Origin: Parapedobacter tibetensis | GTDB taxonomy: Bacteria > Bacteroidota > Bacteroidia > Sphingobacteriales > Sphingobacteriaceae | Assembly: GCF_024704835.1 (NCBI RefSeq) | Contig: NZ_JAMXBE010000021.1 | Coordinates: 1 to 51,768, forward strand | Reading direction: 5' to 3' | DNA: 51,768 nucleotides | Part shown: positions 1,619 through 11,084 of the stretch, piece after piece | How the letters are laid out: each line of letters begins with the position of its first letter | Numbering within the stretch: the stretch's first letter is position 1 | Translations under genes and position numbers: made by a program | Notes under the pieces: model-generated | What the model saw: the letters and a program-made list of their open reading frames with translations, nothing else | What the model was told of the DNA's origin: nothing | Databases searched by the model: none

Positions 1619-2623
1619 ATGAAATTAAAAACCTTATTAACGATAATGGCCCTGGGTACTGCACTCATTGTCCGTGGACAGCAAAACATCCAGTTCACAC
1701 AGTACATCTTCAATTCGATGAGTATCAATCCCGCCTATGCAGGCTATAAAGAGGAATGGTTTGGTCAGTTGGGTTTGCGGAGTCAATGGGTGGGACTTGA
1801 CGGGGCGCCAGAAACGGGCTCATTGTCCGTCGATGGGGTATTGGATCCAACGAATAAACGGCATGGATTGGGTATTCAGATGACGGCCGACAGGATTGGC
1901 CCCCAAGCGGCCACCGCGTTTTACGCCAATTATGCTTTTCGGTTGCGCTTGAACGACGAGGATACGCAACGGTTGAGTTTTGGATTAGGGGCAGGTTTTA
2001 CCCAGTACAGCCTTGATGGCGTGATGCTAGACCCGGTGACACCAGGCGACCCGAACCTGCCGCCAAACAAAATCGCCAATTTCATACCCGATGTCCGTTT
2101 TGGTGTCTATTACTATAATCCGAGTTGGTATGCTGGGGTATCAATCATGGATTTATTGTCCGGCGACCAGAGCAACAATATTTTCCGCTGGGACAATACG
2201 ACCACCGATAACATCCGGCGTAAACGCCATATCTATTTTATGGGCGGGGCATTGGTCAACCTTAGTGAAGGGACCAAGCTGCGGCCCAGTCTATTGGTCA
2301 AGGAGGATTTCAAGGGCCCCACGAGCCTTGATCTCAATGCGATGTTCATCTTCGCCGACCGGTTTTGGATCGGGGGAGGATGGCGTACCGGGGTTACGGT
2401 ATTCAAAAAGGATTATGAACGCGTTACAGGAAACCGTTTAGATCGACGGAATTCGATTTCAGCCATTACCCAGATCTATATTACAGAGGCGTTGCGTATC
2501 GGTTATTCGTATGACCATATCCTGAGCAGGTTGAGTAATGTGCAGAATGGATCACATGAGGTGACATTGGGAATTACGTTTGGCAAGCGGGCGAATCGAT
2601 TGCTAAGCCCTCGGTTTTTCTAA
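1619..2623 (+). CDS. PorP/SprF family type IX secretion system outer-membrane protein
   Basis: A 334-aa protein with an N-terminal signal peptide (MKLKTLLTIMALGTALIVRG) followed by the family hallmark 'FTQYIFNSMSINPAYAG' and a beta-barrel with repeated aromatic strands, ending in 'LGITFGKRANRLLSPRFF'. PorP/SprF proteins are outer-membrane barrels; PorP is a T9SS core component, and SprF-type paralogues sit beside individual CHU_C-bearing substrates and are needed for their export or surface attachment. Position 70 bp after a type B substrate gene makes the SprF-like, substrate-dedicated role more likely than the core PorP role. The ATG at 1619 gives a proper signal peptide; no Shine-Dalgarno is visible, as is normal for this phylum. 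Confidence 0.93.
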   Translation: MKLKTLLTIMALGTALIVRGQQNIQFTQYIFNSMSINPAYAGYKEEWFGQLGLRSQWVGLDGAPETGSLSVDGVLDPTNKRHGLGIQMTADRIGPQAATAFYANYAFRLRLNDEDTQRLSFGLGAGFTQYSLDGVMLDPVTPGDPNLPPNKIANFIPDVRFGVYYYNPSWYAGVSIMDLLSGDQSNNIFRWDNTTTDNIRRKRHIYFMGGALVNLSEGTKLRPSLLVKEDFKGPTSLDLNAMFIFADRFWIGGGWRTGVTVFKKDYERVTGNRLDRRNSISAITQIYITEALRIGYSYDHILSRLSNVQNGSHEVTLGITFGKRANRLLSPRFF

Positions 2624-2691
2624 CGGGCGTATGGACATGTTTCGTTGACATTGCTGCGTTAATTGTGAGAATAGTTAAATATAACAAGAAT

Positions 2692-4677
2692 ATGAAGGAA
2701 TCGTTATTCGCTAAAATTTACGTGATTATGGCTTTGGCCATCATGGCTTTGATCACTATTTGCATATTATTGGTTGCCCCGGCCTATGCCCAGGAACAGC
2801 CTAATTTGCGTGACCGTGCAGACGAGTTGTACCGGCGTTATGAATATGCAAATGCTTCGGTGTTGTATGAGAAACTTGCGAACCGGAGGAAGCCCCGTTT
2901 ACAAGACCTGGAACGTCTTGCCGACAGCTACACGAAAATGAATGACTACGAATCTGCTGAAAAATGGTATTCCAGCGTCATCGAACATGAGGATAGTGCG
3001 CCCGAAAACTTGCGGCATTACGGCCAGGTGCTAAAAGTAAATGGGAAATATGAGGAGGCTAAGCAGCAATTGGAAGCGTATGCGTCCCTTGCTGGTGACC
3101 GTGAATCAGTGGCCAGGCAAATCGCGGGCTGTGACTCTTCCATGGTTTGGATCAAGCAACCTACGGGACATCATGTGCAAAATGAGGCGGCTGTGAACAC
3201 GGATTTGTCGGAGTTTGCCACGTTCCCTAATGATGGCGCAGTTTACTATACGGGTGAACCTGGAAAAGGACTGGGTTTCAATTCCTATGGTTGGACGGGC
3301 AACGCATTTCTACGGATTTATTCAGCTAAACGTTCCACGGATAATAGGTTATCCTCCCCACAGCTGGCAGATGCAGTGCCCAATGATGAACGTTACCATA
3401 TCGGCCCGATAGCGACGGACAACACGGGGAGCACCTTATTTGTAACCCGCACCTATCCCGGTAAGGAAGGAGAGGTGACCAAAGAACGGCGGAAAAAATA
3501 CCGCACCCAGAACTTGGAACTTTATATTTATACCAAAACTTCAGAAACCGGCCAATGGGAAGCTACACCATTTCCTTATAACGACGTGCAAAAATACTCT
3601 TTAGGCCATGCGGCATTGAGCAATGATGGCAATATACTCTATTTTGCAAGCGATATGCCGGGTGGTTACGGTGGTACAGATATCTGGTTTTGTAAAAAGC
3701 AAACGGATGGAAGCTGGGGCACTCCCGTAAATGCTGGATCCGCGGTAAACAGTGAAGGGGAGGAACTATTTCCAAACATTGGCCCAGATAACAGCCTGTA
3801 TTATTCCAGCGATGGATTGGTAGGGATGGGAGGACTGGATATTTTCCACGCGGAAGGAAGCGGGGATCGTTGGTCGGAATCAAAAAATCTGCGGTATCCC
3901 ATCAATTCATCAGGAGATGACTTCGCTTATATCGGTACATTGGAAGATGAAGAAAACGTATACGGCTACCTTTCATCCAATAGAACTGGGGGAAAGGGAG
4001 CCGATGACATTTATTCATTCACATTAGATAAACCAAAAATTATCATCATCCTGCAAGGGACAACATCCGATAAGCAGACTGGAGCACGCTTAGCGGGCAC
4101 CGCGATTACGCTTTTTGATGGCGAACGTGAAATCGTCGCACGGCAAAGCAGCACCCGTGAAGGGACATTTGAATTCGTGCTTGACCGCAACCGTGTATAT
4201 TCCGTGTTGGGCACAAAAGAGGGATATCAGCCTGATTCAGCGGCAGTGAGTACGATGGGAATAGTGAAAAGTGACACGTTAGAAGTGGCTTTATTGTTGG
4301 AACCCGAGTTTGTTGTAGGGCAAAATATTGAGCTGGAGAATATTTATTACAATTTTGATAAACACAATATCCGCCCAGATGCCGCGGAGATATTGGATAG
4401 GTTGGTACAAATCATGAATGATTACCCCACATTAAAAATCCGCCTCTCCAGCCATACCGACAGCCGTGGCAGCGATGAGTATAACATGGGCTTATCGCAG
4501 CGACGTGCGCAAGCCGCTGTCGACTATTTGGTAGGCAAAGGCATCGTTCGTGAACGGATGATTGCCCAAGGCTTTGGGGAGAGCCAACTGGTCAACAAAT
4601 GTGCTAATGGTGTGCCTTGCTCGCGGGAAGCCCACCAAGCTAATAGGCGGACCGAAGTGACCGTGCTGGAGTATTGA
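2692..4677 (+). CDS. OmpA family protein with TPR, PD40 propeller and carboxypeptidase-regulatory-like domains
   Basis: The frame extends up to a GTG at 2665, but the ATG at 2692 gives a clean signal peptide (hydrophobic to about residue 30, cleavage near AYA-Q at 33), so it is taken as the start (661 aa). Domain order: signal peptide; TPR-like helices about 40-150; WD40-like PD40 repeats about 165-440 ('ILYFASDMPGGYGGTDIWF', 'SLYYSSDGLVGMGGLDIF'); a small beta-sandwich about 445-530; and a C-terminal OmpA peptidoglycan-binding domain about 546-661 with 'YYNFDKHNIRPDA', 'SSHTDSRGSDEYN' and 'NRRTEV'. This architecture is typical of PorE-like and other OmpA proteins encoded after PorP/SprF; such proteins tie the outer-membrane complex to peptidoglycan. 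It is the last gene of the cluster and is followed by a strong terminator. Confidence 0.92.
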   Translation: MKESLFAKIYVIMALAIMALITICILLVAPAYAQEQPNLRDRADELYRRYEYANASVLYEKLANRRKPRLQDLERLADSYTKMNDYESAEKWYSSVIEHEDSAPENLRHYGQVLKVNGKYEEAKQQLEAYASLAGDRESVARQIAGCDSSMVWIKQPTGHHVQNEAAVNTDLSEFATFPNDGAVYYTGEPGKGLGFNSYGWTGNAFLRIYSAKRSTDNRLSSPQLADAVPNDERYHIGPIATDNTGSTLFVTRTYPGKEGEVTKERRKKYRTQNLELYIYTKTSETGQWEATPFPYNDVQKYSLGHAALSNDGNILYFASDMPGGYGGTDIWFCKKQTDGSWGTPVNAGSAVNSEGEELFPNIGPDNSLYYSSDGLVGMGGLDIFHAEGSGDRWSESKNLRYPINSSGDDFAYIGTLEDEENVYGYLSSNRTGGKGADDIYSFTLDKPKIIIILQGTTSDKQTGARLAGTAITLFDGEREIVARQSSTREGTFEFVLDRNRVYSVLGTKEGYQPDSAAVSTMGIVKSDTLEVALLLEPEFVVGQNIELENIYYNFDKHNIRPDAAEILDRLVQIMNDYPTLKIRLSSHTDSRGSDEYNMGLSQRRAQAAVDYLVGKGIVRERMIAQGFGESQLVNKCANGVPCSREAHQANRRTEVTVLEY

Positions 4678-4820: not shown

Positions 4821-4860
4821 TTTCCATTTTTATGCATTTTTGTTAGCAAAACCAATAAAA

Positions 4861-6441
4861 ATGAAACATTTAGTTACTTGGATTATTTTTTTATTAATTT
4901 ATACTCCCGAAACCTTTTCACAAACCGGCGGAAACCAACAGGATGCTTTTGACAGTACCTTCTATCACATCTATATGCATACGGCCAGTGAAGATGTCAG
5001 GCTTGCCCTGAAGGCAGCCGATTCACTCTACCAAACTTCCGTCAGTGATATCCATAAAATACGTTCGTTGATGCTAATCGGTGATATGTATCACCGCATG
5101 GCCAATAGGGATTCCTCGATTTTTTATGCCATTGAAGCGGAAAAAATAGCGGTAAAGGCGAATATATACGATTGGCAAGCCCGCATATATGGCGTTCTTT
5201 CTACCCAATACCGAGAAACAGGATTACTAAGTGAGGGAAAAAAATATTTAGAAAAAGGGTTGAAAGCGATAGATAAGGTGGATGATGTAAACCGGTCGAA
5301 ACTATATAAAGGCCAATGTTATCAGGAAATGGGATTCTATGCCTTGGAAGAAGAGCATTTGCAAGAGGCTATCCAATCGTTCAAATGGGCAGCGACATTT
5401 TTCAATGACCTTCCTGAATCACCAACCGTAAACTTTGCACTGACACAAAACGAAGAGCGGCTGGGATTGTGTTATTTAGAACGGGGGATTGTCGATTCGG
5501 CAAACTGTCACTATTTGAATGCCTTGGCGTTAGGAACCAGCACTTCAGATGCTGAAACTCCGCTCCATGGCTTTATTTATAGTGGACTGGGGCGTGTATA
5601 TACGCTACAAGGTGCTTATCACGAAGCAAATGTGTATTTAGAAAAAGCACTTTCGACCGCGGAAACAACCGGGTTTCCCCACCTCAAAATCAGTGTATAT
5701 AAGAGCCTCGCTTTATATCATAAAGCCACCAATAACAATGAGGATTACATGCATTACAGTGAAAAACATATAGAAGCCGTAAGGGATAATGCATCTAAAC
5801 ACAGTAGGTATGCCGATAACGTATTGGTTGGCATCCAGCAAAAACTAGTTGAAATGACTGCCTCCCACAAGATCATGAGCTCCGTTGCATCCGTTTTGAT
5901 ATTGCTCGGAGGAATGGGCATGGGGATATACATTTGGCAACAAAAACGGAATTATCGGCGCTTCAAGGAGCTTATTCATAGACTGAGAAAAGAAGGGCAG
6001 GCCGCCGGCAAGCCAGCTCCAGTTATGGTTGACTCTAGGGATAAGGAGCTAATGCCGGAAGACAAGAAGCAAGAACTGCTGAAAAAACTGGAGCGTTTTG
6101 AATCTTCGCTGCAGTTTACCGATAAAAATATTTCCATTGCCGTGTTGGCAGGAAAAATGAAAACCAATACAAAATACCTCTCCCATATCATCAATAATTT
6201 TAGGCATAAAGACTTCAATACCTACATCAACGACCTCCGCATCAATTACATCATCGCCAAAATGGAAGAAGACAGCAGATACCTAAACTACAAAATCAGT
6301 TATTTGGCCGAGGAATGCGGCTTTTCCACTCATAGCCAATTTACGACCATCTTTAGAAACGTTACCGGTTTGGCACCATCAACTTTCATGACATACTTGA
6401 AAAAAACCAATAAGGACAAGAAACCTGTGATGGTCGATTAG
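4861..6441 (+). CDS. TPR-containing membrane-anchored AraC family transcriptional regulator
   Basis: The frame opens at a TTG (4840), but ATG 4861 begins a signal sequence (MKHLVTWIIFLLIYTPETFS) and is chosen (526 aa). Residues about 25-330 are TPR-like helical repeats, a single transmembrane helix follows at about 337-358 ('SVASVLILLGGMGMGIYIW'), and the C-terminus (about 420-520) is a double helix-turn-helix of AraC/XylS type ('ISIAVLAGKMKTNTKYLSH', 'ISYLAEECGFSTHSQF'). Periplasmic TPRs, one membrane helix and a cytoplasmic AraC domain form a common Bacteroidota one-component regulator, thought to sense an envelope or cell-state signal. It has its own promoter and a terminator upstream, so it is a separate unit. 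Its target genes cannot be read from the sequence. Confidence 0.88.
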   Translation: MKHLVTWIIFLLIYTPETFSQTGGNQQDAFDSTFYHIYMHTASEDVRLALKAADSLYQTSVSDIHKIRSLMLIGDMYHRMANRDSSIFYAIEAEKIAVKANIYDWQARIYGVLSTQYRETGLLSEGKKYLEKGLKAIDKVDDVNRSKLYKGQCYQEMGFYALEEEHLQEAIQSFKWAATFFNDLPESPTVNFALTQNEERLGLCYLERGIVDSANCHYLNALALGTSTSDAETPLHGFIYSGLGRVYTLQGAYHEANVYLEKALSTAETTGFPHLKISVYKSLALYHKATNNNEDYMHYSEKHIEAVRDNASKHSRYADNVLVGIQQKLVEMTASHKIMSSVASVLILLGGMGMGIYIWQQKRNYRRFKELIHRLRKEGQAAGKPAPVMVDSRDKELMPEDKKQELLKKLERFESSLQFTDKNISIAVLAGKMKTNTKYLSHIINNFRHKDFNTYINDLRINYIIAKMEEDSRYLNYKISYLAEECGFSTHSQFTTIFRNVTGLAPSTFMTYLKKTNKDKKPVMVD

Positions 6442-6613: not shown

Positions 6614-6635
6614 ACGCTTATTACTGCTTTTGTCC

Positions 6636-7127
6636 ATGATGGAAATTTCTATTGCGAGTTTGTTCCTTATTTACATCTTGGTGTTGTGTATTGTTGGGCT
6701 GCTTACTTTTTTTTACATGCAGCGGCATGATAGCCGTGGCCAATTGATTTTGGTCCAGGACGGATTTGATCGTGTGATGATGGAGGCTACCCTAGATAAA
6801 AGGGTAAGGAGGCCATTGCTGAGGGGATTCTCCCGAGGGAAGCCAAAGCGGCCTGTTTCATACTGCAGTTGTTACGATAAGTTGACCCAGTATTTGGAAA
6901 ATGCGGAACTTGATTTTTCCTATATCAGAGATGACTCCCGCATGGAGATTTGGATAAAAGAGAAGGAGTGGCTCCCCATCCTGATTTCCAGAATCGGTTT
7001 ACGCCGATATCTTGTTTCATGGTGTGGAATAGCGTATGAAGTGAACGATGAGAAAAAAGTATACCATTATGTTATGAGATTTTGTGTGAATATAAAAGAA
7101 AGCAAAAAGAACAATTGGGGGCTATAA
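6636..7127 (+). CDS. Small membrane-anchored protein of unknown function
   Basis: A 163-aa protein not recognised as a named family. A single N-terminal membrane helix (about residues 4-28, 'IASLFLIYILVLCIVGLLTFFYM') is followed by a basic, soluble, cytoplasm-type region with 'RRPLLRGFSRGKPKRP' and a short Cys pair (YCSCYDK). Start choice: an in-frame TTG at 6630 precedes two ATGs (6636, 6639); the first ATG is used. It stands alone between a consensus promoter and a terminator, so it is probably expressed by itself. It could be lineage-specific; no function is proposed. Confidence 0.65.
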   Translation: MMEISIASLFLIYILVLCIVGLLTFFYMQRHDSRGQLILVQDGFDRVMMEATLDKRVRRPLLRGFSRGKPKRPVSYCSCYDKLTQYLENAELDFSYIRDDSRMEIWIKEKEWLPILISRIGLRRYLVSWCGIAYEVNDEKKVYHYVMRFCVNIKESKKNNWGL

Positions 7128-7242
7128 CCGATGCAATGATTTAAGTATACCAACCGGATGGCGCTGGCACCTGAGGTGCCTATAGCGATACGTTACATCC
7201 ATCTACCAAACAACAAGAGGGCTGATTCCTAAATCACCAATA

Positions 7243-7276
7243 GGCCAATCAATTTAGTTTGATTGGTCTTCTTTTA
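7243..7276 (+). terminator. Rho-independent terminator
   Basis: GGCCAATCAA pairs with TTGATTGGTC (10 bp, one G-U) over a 6-nt loop, followed by TTCTTTTA. It separates the orphan membrane gene from the 7.4-11.1 kb cluster. A second palindrome, GGCACC-TGA-GGTGCC, lies just upstream near 7170. Confidence 0.8.
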
Positions 7277-7385
7277 TAGGTACATACCCAACCATTCTTC
7301 TTCAAAAACATTTAACTAGCCAACTTGTTATTGTTATCGATTGATAGCAATAGAAAAGAACTGTAATGATTGGAGATTTTCACCC

Positions 7386-8171
7386 ATGGAATTATCTTTT
7401 TCGATACACAAGGCGCAAAGCCCGATCATTGCAGCAGCTATTCATGATGGTCATTTGATAGACGCTTCCCTATTGGACGACCTAGCGCTGCAGGAGCATG
7501 AACGTTTTCGAGAAGAAGACCCCTATACAGCTTATATGGCAGATTTGCCGGTAAGCCGGATTGATGTGCGGACTTCGAGGTTCCAGATAGATTTGAATCG
7601 CGCACGCGAGCAAGCCATATATCGGCGTCCAGAAGATGCTTGGGGCCTACAGGTGTGGCGTCGGCCCTTGCCCAAAACCAGCATCCTACAGTTATTGGAC
7701 GAGTATGATCGTTTCTATACGGGGGTCGCGCAACTGCTTCAATGGACCATTGCGATGTTTGGGAAGTTCGTGGTTTTAGACATCCATAGCTATAATCATC
7801 GACGATCAAATCCTTTAGAAGCTGCAAGCATCAGTGAGAATCCGGAAATCAATATCGGAACGGCATTTAATTACGGAAAATGGCAGCTATTGGGCCGCCG
7901 TGTGGTTCGTTTCTTGTCGTATCATTCCATTTTGGGGCATTTCCCGGATGTTAGGGAGAATACGAAATTTGGAGGAGGGACATTTGCCGAATGGGTCAAT
8001 CGGTATTACGGTGAATATGGATGTGTGCTTTCCTTGGAATTCAAAAAAACGTTTATGGACGAATGGACAGGCAGGGTGGATATCCGGCATCTAAACGATA
8101 TTAGAATGGCATTAAAGGGGTGTATCCCTTTTCTATTGGATCAGCTTGATGTTCAAAGCAAACTTACTTAA
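7386..8171 (+). CDS. N-formylglutamate amidohydrolase family protein
   Basis: Start at ATG 7386; the frame reaches back to a TTG at 7341 but without family-like sequence (261 aa from the ATG). The fold family (FGase/HutG, zinc-dependent, related to M14 carboxypeptidases) is indicated by 'AIHDGH' at residues 18-23 (H20, D21, H23 as candidate metal/catalytic residues), 'DIHSYNHRR' from D132, and 'LSLEFKK' near residue 220, which places a conserved Glu. Characterised FGases remove a formyl group from N-formylglutamate in histidine breakdown, but no hut genes are nearby. Instead it is 6 bp upstream of a DUF1704 peptidase and in the same cluster as an ATP-grasp ligase, so a role in peptide or amino-acid amide hydrolysis within that cluster is a reasonable inference. 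The substrate is not determinable here. Confidence 0.82.
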   Translation: MELSFSIHKAQSPIIAAAIHDGHLIDASLLDDLALQEHERFREEDPYTAYMADLPVSRIDVRTSRFQIDLNRAREQAIYRRPEDAWGLQVWRRPLPKTSILQLLDEYDRFYTGVAQLLQWTIAMFGKFVVLDIHSYNHRRSNPLEAASISENPEINIGTAFNYGKWQLLGRRVVRFLSYHSILGHFPDVRENTKFGGGTFAEWVNRYYGEYGCVLSLEFKKTFMDEWTGRVDIRHLNDIRMALKGCIPFLLDQLDVQSKLT

Positions 8172-8177
8172 TGTGGG

Positions 8178-10025
8178 ATGGCCATTAACGAAAAAAAATA
8201 TATTAACCGTATCGTGGATAAACTCAAAAAGGGTCTTCCACTTCATATCAGTTTGCCCAATAAGGGTGAGTTGGTTATGGATAGACCAGTTCCCTTTTTG
8301 CTGGTTTACCGTATACCACCCGATAGTGAGGATGAATTTACATTAACCCTGGGCAAAACGGAGTCTGCTTATTTGGTAGCCCCGGATACCGATGACTGGA
8401 CAGTTACACCCATCATTAAGGCGATAGCTAATACCTTGGCAGATCAATTCGGAGGATTTATGCTGTTAGAAGTATGGTTATCCAATCAGGACGACTCGGC
8501 TACGTTTACCATCCATATTAACCAAAAAAGTGTGTTGCCGATAGCGGAAAAACTACAGACAGAGTTGCAAAATATTCAGCTTAGTCAGGGGATAGCTATG
8601 GATGTAACGCTCAGTAAACGGAAGAAAATGCCATCTCCGCCCTATTATGAGGCATTGTTAAGCAACGAGGAGGCCCGCAAAAGCGAAATCCATGTCATTG
8701 GGCTTGAAATCGCCCCCATTTATATCAATCGGCAAACTGGCTCACCGTATCCATTGTTTCTACGGGAATTGCGTGAGGGCTTTGGAAAGGCATTGCGGAA
8801 AAGTTTCTTCGAATTTGTACGGATGCAAACATCCTATAACGCGGCCCATTTTGAGATGTTGGGCACCACTGAACTGCATGAAACAGTATGGGAAATCGAT
8901 GATAAATTGGCTGAATATAGCAACCAGTTTGATTTCCTCCTGTTGGTAACCCCAATCAATGCCAAAGAGGCATGGGAGGATTTTTGTAAAAGCAAGTACC
9001 AGAAACCCCCAGTATTTCACTACCGCCCCATGCCTATAGATCCCGAGCTAATTAAAAGGAAGTTGTATTGCCTATCCATTGAAGATATAGCGGATCCAAC
9101 GATAGCCTACCTTTTTCGGGATAAACGCAAGGAAATAGACCGCATGCTCAACATGTTGGGTGAACGGGAGAAGCCCGATTTCCTCTATAGTAGCCAACAG
9201 CTATTTGGCAACATCGAGGAAAACTTGCTCGAAACGGCCCGTGCCATATTGGTGGCTGCCGAACTAAAACGGTCATCTGAAGAAAAGGAGATGTTGAATG
9301 CCAATGAATTTGCACAATTGGCGAGAGTTGAACTGCAATACCTGAAAAATCAATATGATATCGTATCCACCGCCGTACGTGTGAGAGACGACGTGGAAGG
9401 TGTCATGGTATCGCGGGGCACGCTCAATATCGGGAGCCGCTATCGCATTGCTAAGGAACGGGCCTTTGCATTGCTTCAACATGAGATTGGCACACATGTA
9501 GCCACGTATTACAATGGGATGGCCCAGCCTTTCAAGCTATTTCATGTAGGGGTGCCGGGCTATGAACAATTGCAAGAAGGGCTCGCCGTGCTAACCGAAT
9601 ATATGGCTGGGGGGCTCACTAATGATCGGATGCGTATACTTGCCGCCCGTGTGGTGGCAGTATATCACATGGTAGCGGGCAATTCATTCCCCGATACATT
9701 TGCCATGCTTACGGACAAATACAAGTTTAGGTCCGAGTTGGCATTTTATATTGCCATGCGGGTATATCGGGGAGGAGGGCTTACAAAGGATGCGGTATAT
9801 CTCAAAGGGTTGCTGAATGTGATCGAATACATCAAACAGGGCAAAGACATTACGAAGTTGCTCGTGGGTAAGATCCGGCAAGATTATCTGCCGGTTATCG
9901 AAGGGCTGATGCATAGGCAGCTGCTCCGGCCATCACCCCTGCGCCCCAGGTTTTTGGAGAAACCCTACTTCGATCGGATTGATGAAATCAAAAAAGGAGG
10001 TAGTGTGTTTAAAATGATAAATTAG
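8178..10025 (+). CDS. DUF1704 (MATCAP-like) metallopeptidase, 'QEGLA motif' protein
   Basis: A 615-aa protein of the DUF1704 family, often labelled in databases as flavohemoglobin expression-modulating QEGLP motif protein. It carries HEIGTH at residues 435-440, an HExxxH zinc signature, and downstream 'LQEGLAVLTEYM' with E467 as likely third ligand or catalytic partner. Eukaryotic DUF1704 members (MATCAP/KIAA0895L) are carboxypeptidases that remove C-terminal tyrosine from alpha-tubulin, so peptidase activity is well supported by family knowledge, though the bacterial substrate is unknown. The N-terminal ~160 residues form a separate region of mixed alpha/beta character. No signal peptide, hence cytoplasmic. 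It starts 6 bp after the FGase-like gene and is followed after 66 bp by an ATP-grasp ligase, so the three are probably co-transcribed. Confidence 0.85.
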   Translation: MAINEKKYINRIVDKLKKGLPLHISLPNKGELVMDRPVPFLLVYRIPPDSEDEFTLTLGKTESAYLVAPDTDDWTVTPIIKAIANTLADQFGGFMLLEVWLSNQDDSATFTIHINQKSVLPIAEKLQTELQNIQLSQGIAMDVTLSKRKKMPSPPYYEALLSNEEARKSEIHVIGLEIAPIYINRQTGSPYPLFLRELREGFGKALRKSFFEFVRMQTSYNAAHFEMLGTTELHETVWEIDDKLAEYSNQFDFLLLVTPINAKEAWEDFCKSKYQKPPVFHYRPMPIDPELIKRKLYCLSIEDIADPTIAYLFRDKRKEIDRMLNMLGEREKPDFLYSSQQLFGNIEENLLETARAILVAAELKRSSEEKEMLNANEFAQLARVELQYLKNQYDIVSTAVRVRDDVEGVMVSRGTLNIGSRYRIAKERAFALLQHEIGTHVATYYNGMAQPFKLFHVGVPGYEQLQEGLAVLTEYMAGGLTNDRMRILAARVVAVYHMVAGNSFPDTFAMLTDKYKFRSELAFYIAMRVYRGGGLTKDAVYLKGLLNVIEYIKQGKDITKLLVGKIRQDYLPVIEGLMHRQLLRPSPLRPRFLEKPYFDRIDEIKKGGSVFKMIN

Positions 10026-10091
10026 CTCTGCTGTCAGCTATGGGCCGTCAGCTTATCCCAGTTTTATAACATTTACTTTTCACTTTTGTAT

Positions 10092-11084
10092 ATGAACATC
10101 GCTTTTCTAGTCAATCAGACACACAAGGAAAAGGTGGATTACACCACCACCGGGCTTGCGCTTGAGGCCCACCGCTTGGGTCACAAGGTATACTACATCG
10201 GTGTGGGTGATTTGGCCTATTTTGCAAATGGACAGATAGGTGCCCATGCACGTGTTGTACCCCAAAAGGAGTTTCGCTCAACGTCCACCATGCTGGAAGC
10301 CCTACGGGAAAGTGAAAAACAACGAATCAGTGCCAAGGAATTGGATGTACTGTTACTAAGAAACGACCCCGTTATGGATATGGAAAGTCGGCCATGGGCA
10401 CAGGATGCGGGTATCCTATTTGGACAGTTGGCTAGCCAGCAGGGAGTGGTCGTGCTCAATGACCCAAATGGGCTTGCCCATGCTTCCAGTAAGCTATATC
10501 TGCAATATTTCCCGGCAAAGGTACGTCCCGATACCATCATCACCCGTAACCTGGTAGATGTGGAAAAATTCTATCACGACCACAAACGTAAAATCATCCT
10601 AAAACCATTGAAAGGCTCAGGGGGTAAAAATGTGTTTCTTGTGGATGGTAAAGAAGACAAAAACATGAAACAGATCGTGGAAGCTATTTGCAGGGACGGT
10701 TTCTTGATTGCGCAGGAGTATCTCCCTGAAGCAAGAAAAGGAGACATCCGTTTGTTCTTGCTCGATGGGGATGTGCTGCAAGTGGGTGGGAAGATAGCTG
10801 CTATCCGTCGCGTTCAAAAAACAGGCGATATCCGCAGCAATATCCACCAAGGTGGGCAAGCTCAAAAGGTGAAAGTGACCAAGCAATTGTTGGATGTCGC
10901 AGGAGCAGTTGCCCAGAAATTGAAAGAAGACGGAATGTTTTTAGCAGGATTGGATGTCGTAGGCAACAAACTAATGGAGATAAATGTCTTCAGCCCGGGT
11001 GGATTACAGGTAGCCAGTGAGTTATATGGTGTTGATTTCTGCAATGCCGTCATGACTACTGTGGAACAACGAGTTGGTGGGTAA
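10092..11084 (+). CDS. Glutathione synthetase-like (RimK-related) ATP-grasp ligase
   Basis: ATG 10092 is preferred to the in-frame TTG at 10086 (330 aa). It shows the prokaryotic glutathione-synthetase/RimK layout: an N-terminal pre-ATP-grasp Rossmann-like domain ('NIAFLVNQTHKEKVDYTTT', 'DVLLLRNDPVMD'), then 'IILKPLKGSGGKNVF' (ATP-binding lysine and glycine-rich loop), 'AQEYLPEARKGDIRLFLL', 'GGKIAAIRR' and the metal-binding 'LMEINVFSPGGL'. ATP-grasp ligases join a carboxylate to an amine through an acyl-phosphate. A true gshB role is possible, but no gshA is present here, while two putative amide-bond hydrolases precede it. Ligation of an amino acid to a peptide or protein end is therefore an equally good reading. 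It is convergent with the DUF2207 gene, 21 bp away. Confidence 0.85.
   Translation: MNIAFLVNQTHKEKVDYTTTGLALEAHRLGHKVYYIGVGDLAYFANGQIGAHARVVPQKEFRSTSTMLEALRESEKQRISAKELDVLLLRNDPVMDMESRPWAQDAGILFGQLASQQGVVVLNDPNGLAHASSKLYLQYFPAKVRPDTIITRNLVDVEKFYHDHKRKIILKPLKGSGGKNVFLVDGKEDKNMKQIVEAICRDGFLIAQEYLPEARKGDIRLFLLDGDVLQVGGKIAAIRRVQKTGDIRSNIHQGGQAQKVKVTKQLLDVAGAVAQKLKEDGMFLAGLDVVGNKLMEINVFSPGGLQVASELYGVDFCNAVMTTVEQRVGG

Follow-up and report, generated by a model that had tools for sequence, protein, structure and literature searches.

A 51,768-nucleotide stretch of the Parapedobacter tibetensis genome (Bacteroidota; contig NZ_JAMXBE010000021.1, positions 1 to 51,768 of the forward strand; hereafter the window, from whose first nucleotide coordinates are counted) carries three adjacent genes encoding a metallo-amidohydrolase of the N-formylglutamate amidohydrolase (FGase) family, a DUF1704 protein with a MATCAP-type metallopeptidase domain, and a GshB-like ATP-grasp ligase, and this trio is a conserved unit. 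The three genes may constitute a self-contained module in which amide bonds are made and trimmed on a common peptide-like substrate, a reading that we regard as evenly poised between right and wrong. What the data show directly are the protein families, the folds, the metal and ATP residues, the genomic linkage, and the fusion of two of the genes in some genomes; the common substrate and its nature, the direction of each reaction, and the cytosolic location of the proteins are inferred.

Organization and conservation of the trio

A preliminary description of the locus reported three co-directional genes separated by 6 and 66 bp, and open reading frame (ORF) analysis of the window recovers the same frames and gaps. 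On the + strand, the FGase-family (PF05013) gene (7386..8171; 261 residues from ATG, in an open frame that permits a TTG start at 7341) is followed by the DUF1704/QEGLA gene (8178..10025; 615 residues, comprising a pseudo-FGase domain and the MATCAP-type domain) and by the ligase gene (10092..11084; 330 residues from ATG, with a TTG at 10086), whose nearest NCBIfam model is PRK12458 (NF009110).

In a set of 41 genomes, consisting of the window's own (6.0 Mb in 85 contigs, with the trio on contig C14) and 40 relatives, the MATCAP family PF08014 is found in 13: all nine of the genus, four of 16 others in the family, and none of 16 in the class. Matches to the ligase family PF02955 at E ≤ 1.4e-48 occur in exactly these 13 genomes, on the same contig and adjoining PF08014, the other 28 having no match better than 7.7e-24 (hypergeometric probability of co-occurrence 5.7e-11, shared ancestry ignored). 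In all 13 short loci, the DUF1704 ORF is flanked by an ORF of 333–356 residues to one side and, to the other, by an ORF truncated at the end of the locus.

The same association is seen at the level of phyla. Among 296 Bacteroidota genomes, 16 encode PF08014, and PRK12458 scores are bimodal, with 17 matches of at least 390 bits in 15 genomes and the next at 214.8 bits and lower. All 15 of these genomes are among the 16 with PF08014, and all 17 matches lie 36–2,486 bp from a PF08014 match. With profile A7, the trio-type FGase is detected at E ≤ 1e-20 in 14 genomes, 13 of which encode PF08014, and was not found at this threshold in the PF08014 genomes G091, G222, and G309. Among 149 Planctomycetota genomes, 29 encode PF08014 and 11 encode PRK12458 (E ≤ 1e-60), ten of the latter being among the 29; of the 20 ligase matches, three fall on contigs that have no PF08014 match, and the other 17 are no more than 2.8 kb from one. 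The PRK12458 cut-off of 408 bits is exceeded in 13 of the Bacteroidota and nine of the Planctomycetota genomes. The corresponding hypergeometric probabilities, which likewise ignore shared ancestry, are 2.6e-24 and 1.8e-7.

A wider sample was taken by profile search of genome contigs, with partner genes detected by profiles built in this analysis; it comprises the best 80 of at least 567 confirmed candidate loci and leans to the window's own clade because the closest candidates were kept. By record title, the 80 loci, many of them from metagenome bins, span about ten phyla, the titles including Bacteroidota, Balneolota, Planctomycetota, Verrucomicrobiota/Kiritimatiellota, Acidobacteriota, Calditrichota, Gemmatimonadota, Poribacteria, Campylobacterota, Actinomycetota, and Pseudomonadota. 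The ligase is present in the flanks of 76 of these best 80 loci, the FGase in 72, and both in 69; where the flank is sufficient, the counts are 76 of 77 and 72 of 78, respectively, as three of the four ligase-less loci end 10–230 bp past the DUF1704 match and two of the eight FGase-less loci start less than 900 bp before it. The plain order FGase–DUF1704–ligase is retained in 56 of the 80, and in three further loci (L074, L081, and L091) the genes adjoin one another without all being on the same strand. The genome-neighbourhood check proposed in the preliminary description thus shows DUF1704, ATP-grasp, and FGase genes to be linked across about ten phyla. No fourth partner emerged, the widest clusters of flanking ORFs covering 13, 10, 10, and 10 of 89 loci (L014–L102); judged by eye, these seem to represent ubiquitous families or synteny within a genus.

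At least two full-length ligase copies are encoded in seven of the 80 loci. Two or three diverged copies per locus were noted in four Planctomycetota loci (L054, L059, L089, and L095), with up to three among them, and in L071 and L072; L054, L089, and L095 also contain a second MATCAP match.

Two of the three genes can be joined in one frame. An FGase::MATCAP fusion is encoded by two Vibrionaceae (Photobacterium and Vibrio) and one Bacteroidota genome, and in the Photobacterium and Bacteroidota proteins both PF05013 and PF08014 exceed their Pfam cut-offs. In the Photobacterium locus, L018, the fusion is accompanied by the ligase.

DUF1704 proteins also match in 127 of 72,556 plasmid records, many of these homologues bearing the TIGR02421 QEGLA name; nine of the hits were inspected individually. 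The trio order is conserved on Rhizobiales plasmids, with examples from Pararhizobium, Shinella, and Aminobacter, and in a record labelled Roseateles. For Sinorhizobium meliloti, whose laboratory strain 2011 has the DUF1704 gene, one record contains the FGase and DUF1704 genes with no third gene annotated, and another contains all three. As to the records themselves, the 4.9- and 4.8-Mb "plasmids" among PLSDB NZ_AP026896.1, NZ_OL790696.1, and CP090105.1 look like chromosomes, and a 1.66-Mb S. meliloti replicon labelled pSymA bears the locus that another record assigns to pSymB.

The two hydrolases

The preliminary description located HDGH and DIHSYNHRR motifs in the first protein, and both are there. 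This protein scores 75.0 bits against PF05013 (Pfam cut-off 28.9) and has the fold of the family. Its residues His20, Glu43, Glu44, Asp132, His134, and Glu218 are invariant in 49 aligned rows, and it appears, from these residues, to be catalytic. Unlike N-formylglutamate amidohydrolase (PF05013; 2q7s and 2odf), the window's FGase matches no NCBIfam family at E 0.001, and of the seven proteins encoded nearby that were scanned, none belongs, by Pfam, to a histidine-utilisation family.

The DUF1704 protein consists of two domains. The C-terminal MATCAP-fold gluzincin domain (8937..10022, +; residues 254–615) scores 296.4 bits against PF08014 (gathering cut-off 27) and 337.6 bits against TIGR02421 QEGLA (E 1e-100), one bit under the curated NCBIfam cut-off of 338.65. 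It combines the MATCAP fold with the metal/catalytic HExxxH motif HEIGTH (9480..9497, +; residues 435–440) and a downstream metal-ligand glutamate within QEGLA (9573..9587, +; residues 466–470); both motifs had been placed correctly in the preliminary description, and His435, Glu436, His440, Gln466, Glu467, and Gly468 are invariant in 63 aligned rows including the window's. The N-terminal domain (8256..8831, +; residues 27–218) is a degenerate FGase domain that lacks residues invariant in the trio FGases: the positions matching Glu43, Glu44, Ser64, and Arg65 are gapped in all 63 rows, and that of His134 is tryptophan in 59 (Trp100 in the window protein).

The structural comparison proposed earlier finds the MATCAP fold and an intact HExxxH…EG site in the window domain. 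Human MATCAP has the same letters HEIGTH and shares a later KD-x2-YL-x-G segment, and Glu467 of QEGLA aligns with the glutamate of its EEG motif, which binds metal (PMC10499314). According to that report, TMCP1 and TMCP2 cut off single C-terminal residues, TMCP1 acting alike on Tyr, Ala, Glu, and Gly and TMCP2 favouring Glu and Ala, and mutation of the catalytic or a metal-site glutamate strongly lowers the activity of TMCP1 and abolishes that of TMCP2 (PMC10499314). Because the motifs match and the human enzymes behave in this way, a carboxypeptidase function of the bacterial domain is plausible. Identity to MATCAP/TMCP (KIAA0895L and KIAA0895; PF08014; PDB 7z5g) is 20%, and the window protein, a predicted peptidase, differs in being fused to a pseudo-FGase domain and in having a ligase neighbour.

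Other DUF1704 proteins were encountered in passing. Pseudoalteromonas (L020, 7860–9227) and Aeromonas (L022, 7635–9026) encode a second QEGLA type of about 450 residues, in which HEGWVH replaces HEIGTH and around which neither a trio FGase nor a trio ligase was found within 17 kb. Among 50,697 phage records, the sole DUF1704 match at E 1e-5 lies in Pseudomonas phage Y1 (OQ572403.1, 63605–64642; E 3e-9), and could be an auxiliary gene or a misfiled bacterial one.

The ATP-grasp ligase

The third protein scores 166.2 bits against PF02955 GSH-S_ATP (cut-off 23) and also matches PF02951 GSH-S_N. It shares domain order with GshB (TIGR01380; 1gsa) and the subfamily PRK12458, and it retains Lys125, Lys160, Arg210, Arg225, Asp273, Glu281, and Asn283 of E. 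coli GshB, which we take to serve ATP and Mg binding. At least 41 of 42 ligases of class A and all nine of class B have these residues, in agreement with the intact ATP-grasp motifs described earlier.

Nevertheless, the protein seems to be something other than an ordinary GshB, because it falls in a separate tree group, its INVTSPT motif is changed, and no PF04107 or PF04262 match was found in the genome. PRK12458, the closest NCBIfam model, is missed narrowly (391.1 bits; cut-off 408), whereas the glutathione synthetase models TIGR01380 and PRK05246 reach 216 and 224 bits against curated cut-offs of 299.05 and 272, and the RimK-family model TIGR00768 reaches 83.9 against 143.4. Asp9 and Thr288, invariant in five GshB sequences and presumably in contact with the peptide substrate, are altered in all 42 class A and nine class B ligases, the Thr288 position being glycine in every one; GshB INVTSPT becomes INVFSPGG or VNVLSPGG. 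In a tree of 61 rows, three canonical GshB and two Bacteroidota sequences (194–215 PRK12458 bits) form one clade (support 100/99), the ligases of loci with the layout ligase–FGase–MATCAP form another (97/99), and the window's ligase class forms a third, more weakly supported group (80/73), with RimK far from the others; the program gave a long-branch warning, and the deepest group depends on the root. The copy number of two or three in some lineages further separates these ligases from GshB. The ligase loop RSNIHxGG is RimK-like, but it is no argument for a protein-tail ligase, since two alphaproteobacterial GshB read RSNMHVGG or RANMHVGG.

A defence or phage origin of the trio was considered and rejected: none of the three proteins has a PADLOC match at E 0.01, and the ligase has a single PHROG match, phrog_2599 (E 3.8e-7).

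A proposed amide-bond module

In the proposed module, the GshB-type ATP-grasp enzyme would activate a carboxylate with ATP and join it to an amino group, the MATCAP-type HExxxH metallopeptidase would take a residue off the carboxyl end, and the FGase-type metallo-amidohydrolase would remove an N-acyl cap or a gamma-type amide, all three presumably in the cytosol and on the same substrate. The pseudo-FGase domain may be a relic of an FGase–MATCAP fusion, now probably a scaffold that binds substrate or partner. The substrate would most likely be a small peptide or amino-acid conjugate of non-ribosomal origin, since some relatives encode two or three ligases, which suggests stepwise building of a small peptide, and since no carrier or target gene was found with the trio. 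As for a ribosomally synthesized and post-translationally modified peptide-like precursor upstream of the FGase gene, the small ORFs in the 900 bp upstream of 67 of 69 FGase genes and of the window's (two minus-strand genes omitted) gave no candidate, the eight largest clusters each being confined to one genus.

ATP-grasp amide formation beside a metallo-hydrolase is also the logic of amidoligase–peptidase operons, examples of which are the LysX/LysK carrier systems, NAGGN synthesis, and RimK. The trio can be regarded as a variant of this ATP-grasp-plus-peptidase type, from which it differs in that no carrier gene was found with it, the peptidase families are different, and no NAGGN model is among the NCBIfam matches of the ligase. 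The operon is patchy, ligase and peptidase occurring together in 15 of the 296 Bacteroidota genomes, yet it extends to about ten phyla. Should it make a new peptide metabolite or edit protein ends, it would represent a new branch of bacterial amide-bond biology. It would also place the tubulin-detyrosinase fold in a bacterial context of simple genetics, where the substrate of the fold could be found.

No description of the trio was found in the open literature searched, though an earlier in silico proposal may exist. In Photobacterium damselae under low salt, the gene annotated 'GshB' (RS17020) is upregulated 38-fold and that annotated QEGLA (RS17025) 27-fold (PMC10308900), and in Vibrio vulnificus, the consecutively numbered genes VV2_1203 (COG3930) and VV2_1204 (glutathione synthetase) are specific to clade 2 (PMC3091676); the accessible parts of neither report discuss the trio.

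Several observations weigh against the proposed module. The activities of the three proteins are predictions from sequence and fold, and a ligase and a peptidase working together could run a futile cycle unless they are regulated apart. In six of the 78 loci with upstream flank, no FGase lies near the DUF1704 gene, as a rescan confirmed; L101 has neither FGase nor ligase within its flanks, and the Vibrio fusion (L019) has no ligase in 17 kb. Among Bacteroidota, G164 has a trio-type FGase (L139, 4240–5055) around which neither of the partner genes was found in 10 kb, and G222 has a 429-residue PF08014 open frame but lacks both a trio-type FGase and any PRK12458 match reaching 390 bits. Among Planctomycetota, 19 of the 29 PF08014 genomes have no ligase at E ≤ 1e-60, 16 of them with PF08014 open frames of 407–508 residues that look like a stand-alone subfamily, and G369 has the ligase and no PF08014. 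The low-salt co-expression comes from one species and one study (PMC10308900).

Alternative explanations

The main rival is a protein-end cycle, in which the ligase would extend a cellular protein at its C-terminus by one or more residues and the MATCAP-type enzyme would take these off again. TTL/TTLL and MATCAP act on tubulin in this manner and RimK on ribosomal protein S6. The preliminary description built on the tubulin cycle, and its interpretation stands in part: the pairing of ligase and hydrolase is borne out, and the analogy holds for the peptidase fold only. The eraser of the tubulin cycle belongs to the same family as the trio peptidase, whereas the trio writer is of GshB/RimK type and the third enzyme has no counterpart there. 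The MATCAP fold and motif of the window domain, the removal of single C-terminal Tyr, Glu, Ala, or Gly by MATCAP/TMCP (PMC10499314), and the relatedness, albeit more distant, of the protein-tail ligase RimK to the trio ligase would all suit such a cycle. Nonetheless, the ligase is nearer to GshB than to RimK (142 versus 46 bits against PDB chains; 216 versus 84 bits in NCBIfam), no target-protein gene was found travelling with the trio, and several ligase copies and an FGase fit poorly in a one-residue cycle, so that we consider it doubtful. Held just as tentatively is a broader proposal of a bacterial system that writes, erases, and uncaps peptide or protein ends. Here a ligase of the GshB/RimK type and a carboxypeptidase of the MATCAP type would share one carboxyl terminus as their target, the eukaryotic tubulin detyrosinases would have their prokaryotic origin in this system, and its product would be a new non-ribosomal peptide or terminal modification.

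Scavenging or detoxification, in which the hydrolases would open an unusual N-acylated or gamma-linked peptide from the environment and the ligase would reuse or tag the pieces, has a parallel in the gamma-glutamylation of putrescine breakdown. Two of the three enzymes are hydrolases, the distribution is patchy across phyla and includes large plasmids, and the low-salt induction in one species appears in a table that also lists polyamine genes (PMC10308900). However, apart from ubiquitous families, no transporters or catabolic enzymes are found repeatedly at the loci (13 of 89 at most), and the most constant partner is the ligase (76 of 80), which leaves this explanation unlikely.

The synthesis of glutathione or a close thiol analogue, with both hydrolases recycling the glutathione-like tripeptides, is favoured by the GshB family and domain order of the ligase and by its database name, 'glutathione synthase' or 'synthetase'; such names are misleading here, another trio gene being called 'flavohemoglobin modulator'. 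In two Flavobacteriaceae, a gene for a two-domain rhodanese (PF00581) lies between ligase and FGase (L119, 7319–8155, −; L120, 4761–5606, +), which would also accord with thiol chemistry. Against it stand the scores below the GshB cut-offs and the uniform replacement of Thr288. No PF04262 match was found in any of the 41 genomes, and PF04107 is found in only one (G008) of the 13 trio genomes among them, the window's own having neither in a search limited to these two gshA families. Among 20 named trio genomes, PF04107 matches in 12 and is missing in eight; this weakens the argument from gshA absence, but, since the family presumably holds several ligases, the 12 matches are not counted as proof either way. 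Given the genomes in which PF04107 was not found (12 of 13, the window's own included, and eight of 20), gamma-Glu-Cys is probably not available everywhere the trio ligase occurs. In Sinorhizobium sp. C101, a GshB 42.9% identical to that of E. coli is encoded on one replicon and the DUF1704 gene on another, the trio ligases of other Sinorhizobium being about 32% identical. Of the two outcomes named earlier as fatal to the pairing, an unconserved neighbourhood is contradicted by the surveys, and of the other, the part concerning an ordinary glutathione synthetase with a gshA elsewhere is not borne out; glutathione metabolism is, in our estimation, quite improbable.

Chance adjacency of three common families in this genus is refuted by the surveys, with linkage over about ten phyla and fusion in three proteins examined, and its probability is negligible.

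Flanking sequences

In the interval that separates the FGase gene from its upstream neighbour lies a terminator-like hairpin of 11 pairs with a T-rich tail (7242..7269, +), found by a consensus scan that detected ten such hairpins in the window against 4.4 expected; it would give the trio a transcription unit of its own, though the indication is weak. No Bacteroidota promoter (TTTG/TAnnTTTG) was found directly upstream of the FGase gene, the window containing three matches against 2.3 expected. The upstream gene (6630–7127, +) encodes a 165-residue protein that matches nothing in Pfam, NCBIfam, or PHROG at E 0.001. Further upstream, positions 1619–4677 encode a PorP/SprF-family protein and a PorE-like OmpA protein (the latter below cut-off), both associated with type IX secretion, and these genes are adjoined by a TPR-AraC regulator at 4840–6441.

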